From positions 1 through 64,000 of the forward strand of contig WPIF01000012.1 in NCBI GenBank assembly GCA_009773185.1: 64,000 bases of DNA, given 5' to 3'. Under the pieces are notes generated by a model, which saw only the letters and a list, made by a program, of their open reading frames with translations, was not told the DNA's origin and did no database searches. Shown piece after piece: positions 22,165 to 23,048 of this stretch (within the stretch, counting starts at the first letter, position 1; each line of letters begins with the position of its first letter). Position numbers and translations under genes: made by a program. The DNA comes from Nitrospirota bacterium. GTDB lineage: Bacteria > Nitrospirota > Thermodesulfovibrionia > Thermodesulfovibrionales > UBA1546.

Positions 22165-22236
22165 ATGTTAGAGGCTATAATTCTTGGAATTGTTCAGGGA
22201 TTTACGGAATTCCTGCCTGTAAGCAGCGCCGAATGA
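22165..22236 (+). pseudogene. Fossil 5' end of a uppP gene
   Basis: Encodes 23 residues beginning [16 protein letters not shown] and running to PVSSA-E, then TGA. This is clearly the N-terminus of undecaprenyl-diphosphatase (family pattern [18 protein letters not shown]), cut just where the second half of the first active-site motif should follow. The complete uppP starts inside its stop (ATG at 22233 overlaps TGA at 22234). The two N-termini are related but different ([15 protein letters not shown] against LGIVEGITEFIPVSS), so this is not a simple sequencing duplication. It could now serve as a coupled leader peptide. Confidence 0.85.
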
Positions 22237-23048
22237 ACATGATATTTCTCTTAAAGGGGCTCTTCCTGGGGATTGTGGAGGGAATAACCGAATTCATCCC
22301 GGTTTCATCCACAGGCCACCTGATTCTTGCCGGCGATTTTCTGGGTTTCGGGGGCGAAAAGGCAAAGGTTTTTGAACTGTTCATCCAGTTGGGTGCAATC
22401 CTGTCTGTAGTATGGCTTTACAGGGAAAAGATATTCGGCGTAATGAAAAGACTCCAAGGCAACAAAGATGCGCGTTCTTTTGTGAGCAACATAATCATTG
22501 CATTTCTTCCTGCGGCATTCATTGGGCTGCTGGCTCATAAGGCCATAAAGGCATACCTCTTCAATCCGATAACTGTTGCGGCGGCGCTTGTTGCCGGAGG
22601 GCTTGCGATCCTGCTCATAGAAAGGATGGACCACCGGTCACACGTGAAGGAAGTCGCTGACATTACCCTGAAACAGGCCATGGCAGTGGGGCTCGCTCAA
22701 TGTTTATCACTCTTCCCAGGCGTTTCGCGTTCCGGGGCAACGATCATGGGTGGCCTCCTCACAGGGTTTGACAGAAGGGTTTCAGTAGAATTCTCTTTTT
22801 TTCTCGCTATCCCGACCATGATAGCGGCGACCGGATATGATCTGTTTTCTAATATGCAGGCTCTCTCGCTCTCAGACATACCTCTCTTTAGTGTTGGATT
22901 CATTACATCGTTTTTTTCCGCGCTGATTGTCATTAAGTCGTTTTTAAGGTATGTCTCGCGGCATGATTTTTCAGGGTTTGCATATTACCGGATAGGATTT
23001 GGTTTATTCATTTTAGCCTTTTATTGGCATAGGGGGTGGAAGTTCTGA
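22233..23048 (+). CDS. uppP: Undecaprenyl-diphosphatase UppP (BacA)
   Basis: Integral membrane phosphatase that recycles undecaprenyl pyrophosphate to the monophosphate for peptidoglycan and O-antigen carriers. It confers bacitracin resistance in this family. Motifs are GIVEGITEFIPVSSTGH (residues 13-29) and FPGVSRSGATIMGG near 166-179. About eight hydrophobic segments are visible in 271 aa. It sits directly behind a truncated uppP fragment and likely uses that fragment's promoter. Its wording differs from the fragment, consistent with replacement by an acquired copy. Confidence 0.96.
   Translation: MNMIFLLKGLFLGIVEGITEFIPVSSTGHLILAGDFLGFGGEKAKVFELFIQLGAILSVVWLYREKIFGVMKRLQGNKDARSFVSNIIIAFLPAAFIGLLAHKAIKAYLFNPITVAAALVAGGLAILLIERMDHRSHVKEVADITLKQAMAVGLAQCLSLFPGVSRSGATIMGGLLTGFDRRVSVEFSFFLAIPTMIAATGYDLFSNMQALSLSDIPLFSVGFITSFFSALIVIKSFLRYVSRHDFSGFAYYRIGFGLFILAFYWHRGWKF

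Follow-up and report, generated by a model that had tools for sequence, protein, structure and literature searches.

UppP is an undecaprenyl-diphosphatase of the UppP/BacA family (PF02673), and uppP is a cell-wall lipid-recycling gene. The Escherichia coli member of the family is BacA (PDB 5oon). The DNA analyzed here, referred to as the window, is a stretch of 64,000 nucleotides from an uncultured Nitrospirota bacterium (contig WPIF01000012.1). The UppP encoded in the window is likewise full length and carries the EGxTEF-PVSSTGH and PGxSRSG motifs. As a protein it is no different from the described enzymes; the genetic setting alone is unusual.

The closest described process is xenologous in-situ displacement, discussed together with mosaic operons (Omelchenko et al. 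2003, Genome Biol 4:R55, as relayed in PMC1274311 and PMC2783167). In this process a foreign orthologue takes the resident's place, gene order is kept, and the event is seen from gene-tree discordance. The uppP locus of the window is like this in all three respects. When a core gene is exchanged for a distant version, the evidence is usually a tree and nothing else, and how the exchange came about has left no mark. At the present locus the two ends of the displaced gene remain legible, as does a small part of the gene next to uppP in the donor. This makes it possible to trace the joints, the sequence of events and the second spread, and to read base by base the donor's neighbor sequence and the later loss of a scar. 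In-situ gene displacement is a known process, and this locus is an unusually complete example of it.

Two further systems are relevant to expression. Leaderless genes with a -10 box adjoining the open reading frame have been described (BMC Genomics 2011, PMC3160421), including in Deinococcus-Thermus (PMC12340547). The window resembles them in having TATAAT a few bases before a start codon, no Shine-Dalgarno sequence, and a genome-wide excess of such sites; it differs in that the predicted leaderless start belongs to a fossil open reading frame that precedes the functional gene. In translational coupling through an overlapping stop and start (ATGA), the stop of a short upstream open reading frame falls on the start codon of the gene that follows. 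Here too a short open reading frame ends on the uppP start codon, but it is the stump of a displaced gene and not an evolved regulator. No precedent for a displaced gene with retained ends and a coupled leader turned up among the papers searched.

Layout of the rnj–ftsK interval

The features of the interval are listed in Table 1. The intact uppP scores 278.8 bits against PF02673 (cut-off 33.4) and 370.5 against NF001389 (cut-off 262), and its conserved VEGITEFIPVSSTGH and PGVSRSG motifs align with PDB 5oon. It is the only full BacA-family gene in the window's genome. Two types of UppP are distinguished here, which are ~35% identical and are separated by a very long tree branch; their best NCBIfam models also differ (PRK00281.2-4 for type 1 and PRK00281.1-2 for type 2). 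The intact gene is of type 2.

Table 1. Features of the rnj–ftsK interval, in window coordinates
Feature	Position	Strand	Remark
rnj, ribonuclease J	20018..21673	+	upstream landmark
small cytochrome c'-like protein gene	21715..22137	+	CVRCH motif; between rnj and uppP
extended -10 element TGCTATAAT	22148..22156	+	8 nt 5' of the fossil ATG
5' scar (fossil)	22165..22227	+	type-1 uppP codons 1-21, of the type of the sister genus (g2)
leader open reading frame, 23 codons	22165..22236	+	formed by the 5' scar; its TGA overlaps the uppP ATG
5-nt joint GCCGA	22228..22232	+	links type-1 codon 21 to the donor start codon
intact foreign type-2 uppP, 271 aa	22233..23048	+	NCBIfam PRK00281.1-2
probable relic of the donor ftsK start, cATGGCGGTTTCT	23049..23061	+	donor-clade genomes have TGA-N-ATGGC.GT here
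3' scar	23062..23152	+	type-1 uppP, last ~28 codons, ending in TLNIFVYYRFMLAIIIIGGIWLKG and stop; overlaps the ftsK start
ftsK	23137..25194	+	downstream landmark; start overlaps the 3' scar

The earlier note had described a UppP N-terminal fragment ending in TGA, a complete uppP starting within that stop, and a TATAAT box in front of the fragment. Both open reading frames are present and overlap by ATGA at 22233-22236, and the box lies at 22151-22156 as part of the extended -10 element. The 23-residue fragment, referred to here as the fossil, matches Pfam BacA when searched alone (E 1.3e-7), and in a whole-genome search it is the only second BacA place (E 6.0e-6). Within its own genome, PF02673 matches only the type-2 gene and the fossil; the 3' scar was found by tblastn. 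The two start codons are 68 nt apart in the window's genome (G000) and in G001, G004 and G005, which represent the window's genus (window and G001), the sister genus g2 (G004) and genus g3 (G005). Since four genomes assembled independently of each other share the arrangement, neither assembly error nor chance explains it. Most of the genomes compared are metagenome-assembled. A search for carriage by phages with the 23-residue fragment gave only weak, general UppP matches.

At the 5' joint, the window reads GCCGA, G005 reads ACCGC and G004 reads AACGC, and native genes have ACAGC at the same place. The earlier note had placed the crossover in the PVSS-coding region. Homologous recombination within that stretch of two uppP genes would account for a fossil that ends just past PVSS, but it would yield one chimeric gene rather than a fragment and a complete gene. 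The PVSS motif is retained in the fossil and in the intact gene alike, and in all fossil-bearing genomes the donor ATG directly follows type-1 codon ~22. These sequences refute a PVSS crossover, to which we assign next to no chance.

The earlier note overlooked a second remnant 3' of the intact gene. Residues 218-255 of the native UppP of G003, a member of the same genus, align at 23042-23149 with 74% identity (tblastn, E 3.6e-10). This type-1 remnant follows ~4 codons that resemble the donor ftsK start and stands in front of ftsK. A type-1 C-terminus behind a type-2 gene means that the foreign uppP sits inside a type-1 gene whose middle was lost. Where native type-1 uppP is intact, its end likewise overlaps the start of ftsK. 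There is thus a simple reason for the survival of the 3' scar: it covers the ftsK start region, which it would continue to hold.

The cytochrome c'-like open reading frame matches PF01322 with E 2.6e-4, which is below the family cut-off. The gene is found between rnj and uppP in the window and in several related genomes; it is missing at this site in G004 and G013, and a distinct variant is present in G009, G010, G012 and G014. Its absence or variation among relatives indicates that the whole rnj–ftsK interval is variable.

Displacement of the resident gene and its donor

Relatives of the window's genome preserve the older arrangement. Intact type-1 uppP lies directly 5' of ftsK in G003 and in G006, G007, G008, G011, G013 and G015, and further families of the order likewise have type-1 uppP at this site; rnj lies 5' wherever the contig covers it. 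G002, also of the window's genus, lacks the locus. The native gene starts like the fossil, continues with STAHLILFPWFFGW, and is the single complete uppP at the site. The ancestral state is clearly a single complete type-1 uppP.

Type-2 uppP (STGHLILAGD) occupies the site in eight genomes of the family, including the window's. The 5' scar is present in four of them and the 3' scar in all eight. A model of the type-1 C-terminus detects the 3' scar clearly in seven (33-48 bits); that of G005 has diverged, and its last 36 nt are still alignable. Gene order, with uppP-ftsK and upstream rnj and the cytochrome gene, is common to the window and G003, G006, G011 and G015, and the resident type-1 orthologue is gone from the window's genome. 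The proposal in the earlier note that a foreign uppP replaced the native gene in place holds, since the intact gene is off the species tree and relatives have type 1 at the site. Displacement of a type-1 uppP with two scars left behind is very probably the correct reading of these sequences.

The same evidence bears on an old tandem duplication whose first copy decayed. Two UppP N-termini do stand in tandem, but the pieces come from two deeply separate subfamilies, the type-1 C-terminus follows the intact type-2 gene, and relatives have a single type-1 gene at the site. Relatives with the same tandem and an intact gene that follows the species tree had been named as signs of a duplication, and neither was seen. 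The position of the 3' remnant refutes duplication, which is scarcely credible.

The donor can be placed outside the family. The type-2 proteins of the window's family (f1) form one clade (support 100/97) nested among genes of f25, a family of another class of the phylum, and are 73-75% identical to those of the f25 genomes G291, G293 and G242. In these three genomes, type-2 uppP is followed immediately by an ftsK beginning ATGGC.GT, and this start matches cATGGCGGTTTCT behind the uppP stop in the window. That sequence is best read as the probable start of the donor ftsK, carried along with uppP. The single clade, the single 5' spacing and the shared 3' joint argue for one primary event in the family. 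In this first step, which is well supported, a type-2 uppP from f25 together with the donor's first ftsK codons would have replaced the middle of the resident type-1 uppP, leaving ~22 type-1 codons in front and ~28 behind.

Probable secondary spread between genera

The earlier note had taken the fossil to be the old native start with its native promoter. The promoter part holds, as the sequence around the -10 box is of the own-genus type, like that of G003. The fossil part does not. Over its 63 nt, the fossil has 3 differences from the native gene of G015 (g2) and also 3 from the fossil of G004, and 11 from the native gene of G003. Its distances to G015, G013 and the G004 fossil are 3-4, and g2 members differ by up to 7 among themselves; other between-genus comparisons of the uppP start give at least 8. 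Only the promoter is native.

The boundary is sharp. Among the sites at which G003 and G015 differ, those up to position -6 show the own-genus state in the window 26 times and the g2 state once; from position -5 on, the g2 state is found 11 times and the own-genus state once (Fisher p 8e-8). The switch from own-genus to g2 type thus occurs within about 10 bp at the fossil start codon. Because the type flips at the start codon, the fossil and the type-2 gene appear to have arrived together, and we consider it quite probable on these site patterns that they spread between genera as a unit.

The alternative is a direct replacement of the uppP of the window lineage itself, with the fossil as its native start and an atypical, imported gene in G003. 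The own-genus promoter region just upstream and the intact native genes at the site within the family are in keeping with this. The fossil lies inside g2 diversity whether or not G003 is typical, however, and direct replacement does not agree with so sharp a type switch at the start codon. We consider it improbable. Trees of rpoB, recA and ftsK place G003 firmly with G000 and G001.

The type-2 gene with its scars is referred to here as the composite allele. Genus g2 mixes type-1 and type-2 species, and this distribution is off the species tree. Between G010 and G004, both of g2, 81% of fourfold sites agree in ftsK and 59% in uppP. G014 groups with the window's genus in the uppP DNA tree, and a single g2 clade on uppP DNA is disfavored at the border only (AU p 0.047). 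On the 3' side the return switch falls either inside the scar or close to the ftsK start, and its breakpoint is diffuse. In the second step, which is supported, the composite allele would have moved between genera, with a sister-genus (g2-like) donor for the window lineage and crossovers at the start codon on the 5' side and within or near the 3' scar and the ftsK start on the other.

The 5' scar is missing in G009, G010, G012 and G014. All four carry GTAAGCAGC, or a sequence close to it, between the stop of the cytochrome gene and the start of uppP. This is what a deletion joining that stop to the end of the scar would leave. A third step is thus supported, in which some relatives would later have lost the 5' scar, with GTAAGCAGC left fused to the cytochrome stop.

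Expression of the foreign gene and parallel cases

The fossil start has the features of a leaderless start, with an adjoining -10 element, no Shine-Dalgarno sequence and an anti-Shine-Dalgarno energy of +2.2. Throughout the genome, TGNTATAAT-N4-9-ATG occurs at 49 sites, compared with 2 for the reversed control, and TATAAT-N4-9-ATG occurs 16 times in the window, where 5.1 are expected. Such a -10 box precedes 10 of the 20 type-1 uppP genes examined. Leaderless transcription may be frequent in the window's lineage, and the fossil start is naturally read as the 5' end of a leaderless transcript. Start codons immediately preceded by an extended -10 element are frequent in this genome; the rnj ATG is one example, preceded at 6 nt by a TGTTATAAT box (20003-20020).

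The anti-Shine-Dalgarno energy at the window's uppP is -0.5 kcal/mol; the background median is -2.5, and donor-clade copies range from -5.7 to -8.1. The missing Shine-Dalgarno sequence fits a joint at the start codon itself. With the leader stop overlapping the downstream start, a coupled leader peptide in front of uppP is plausible. We infer that transcription from the retained -10 box would yield a leaderless mRNA whose 5' end lies at the fossil AUG or beside it. Ribosomes would then translate the leader of 23 codons and start again at the uppP AUG that its stop overlaps. That this coupled leader is needed for uppP expression seems to us slightly better than an even bet. The locus suggests how a foreign gene without promoter or ribosome-binding site may come to be expressed: it may make use of the opening codons of its displaced predecessor.

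It is also possible, at clearly less than even chance, that the history was the same but both scars are inert, kept only by short time, and that uppP is expressed through internal initiation or read-through transcription. The scar-free G009, G010, G012 and G014 evidently express uppP, and the leader would thus be dispensable where another upstream gene supplies ribosomes. The fossil of G005 has two unusual changes at otherwise conserved positions, A4V and G12R, which argue against strict conservation of the peptide. Against inert scars stand the missing Shine-Dalgarno sequence and the state of the fossil itself: its frame is free of indels and early stops in the four genomes, which span three genera, the 68-nt spacing is constant, and its TGA overlaps uppP codon 1 in the window and codon 1 or 3 in G001, G004 and G005. 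In addition, all five codons that differ among the fossils of G000, G001 and G004 differ synonymously (P about 0.001-0.002 if neutral), though five changes are few and some may predate fossilization. The whole explanation, in which a core gene was displaced in situ, the composite allele later spread between genera and the leader is coupled, is likely in our judgment. A further proposal is doubtful: that the front stump is selected as a leaderless leader cistron through which the foreign gene, lacking a Shine-Dalgarno sequence, can be translated, and that both stumps serve as homology arms, so that the allele is portable between genera and the swap recurs.

Similar scars are found outside the family. 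In G186 (family f17 of the same class; L071/L167), a type-1 start MFEAIVLGIIQGITEFPPVS.. lies under the same kind of promoter, the TGA of the type-1 fossil overlaps the ATG of a type-2 uppP (TGATG), and a type-1 C-terminal remnant precedes ftsK. This type-2 uppP belongs to a different clade from that of the window's family, and G186 is an independent parallel swap with both scars. Weaker 3' remnants are found in another family, in G185, G220 and G216 (10.7-12.7 bits). Together with G186, they suggest that swaps at the uppP-ftsK site are recurrent, which would make the site a tractable natural experiment. UppP has been reported as a bacteriocin target (PMC12765074), and varying bacteriocin targets as the reason for the swaps are a matter of speculation.

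Genomes with two BacA matches were screened for further stumps. The pieces in G091 and G225 lie at or near contig ends and were not counted. A lone N-terminal fragment in G125 (L162 2546-2653) is of a third UppP kind (MEITYIQVLVLAVVQGACELLPVSSSAH) and lies away from the intact uppP; it was not counted either.

Several minor observations were made in the same set. In G136, a genome of another family rated 100% complete, the sole BacA match (L161 2167-2394) is a uppP with an in-frame middle deletion. Residues 1-33 are joined to 212-255 in a 78-aa open reading frame between rnj and ftsK, so that the ends alone remain. The upstream region at L036 3250-3500 has what we take to be a resemblance to a cobalamin riboswitch. 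The type-2 uppP of G005 (L040) has a GTG start and PVSATGH instead of the usual PVSSTGH, and its activity may be altered. In G009 (L044), an in-frame TGA lies a few codons before the usual uppP stop, and the protein is slightly shorter.
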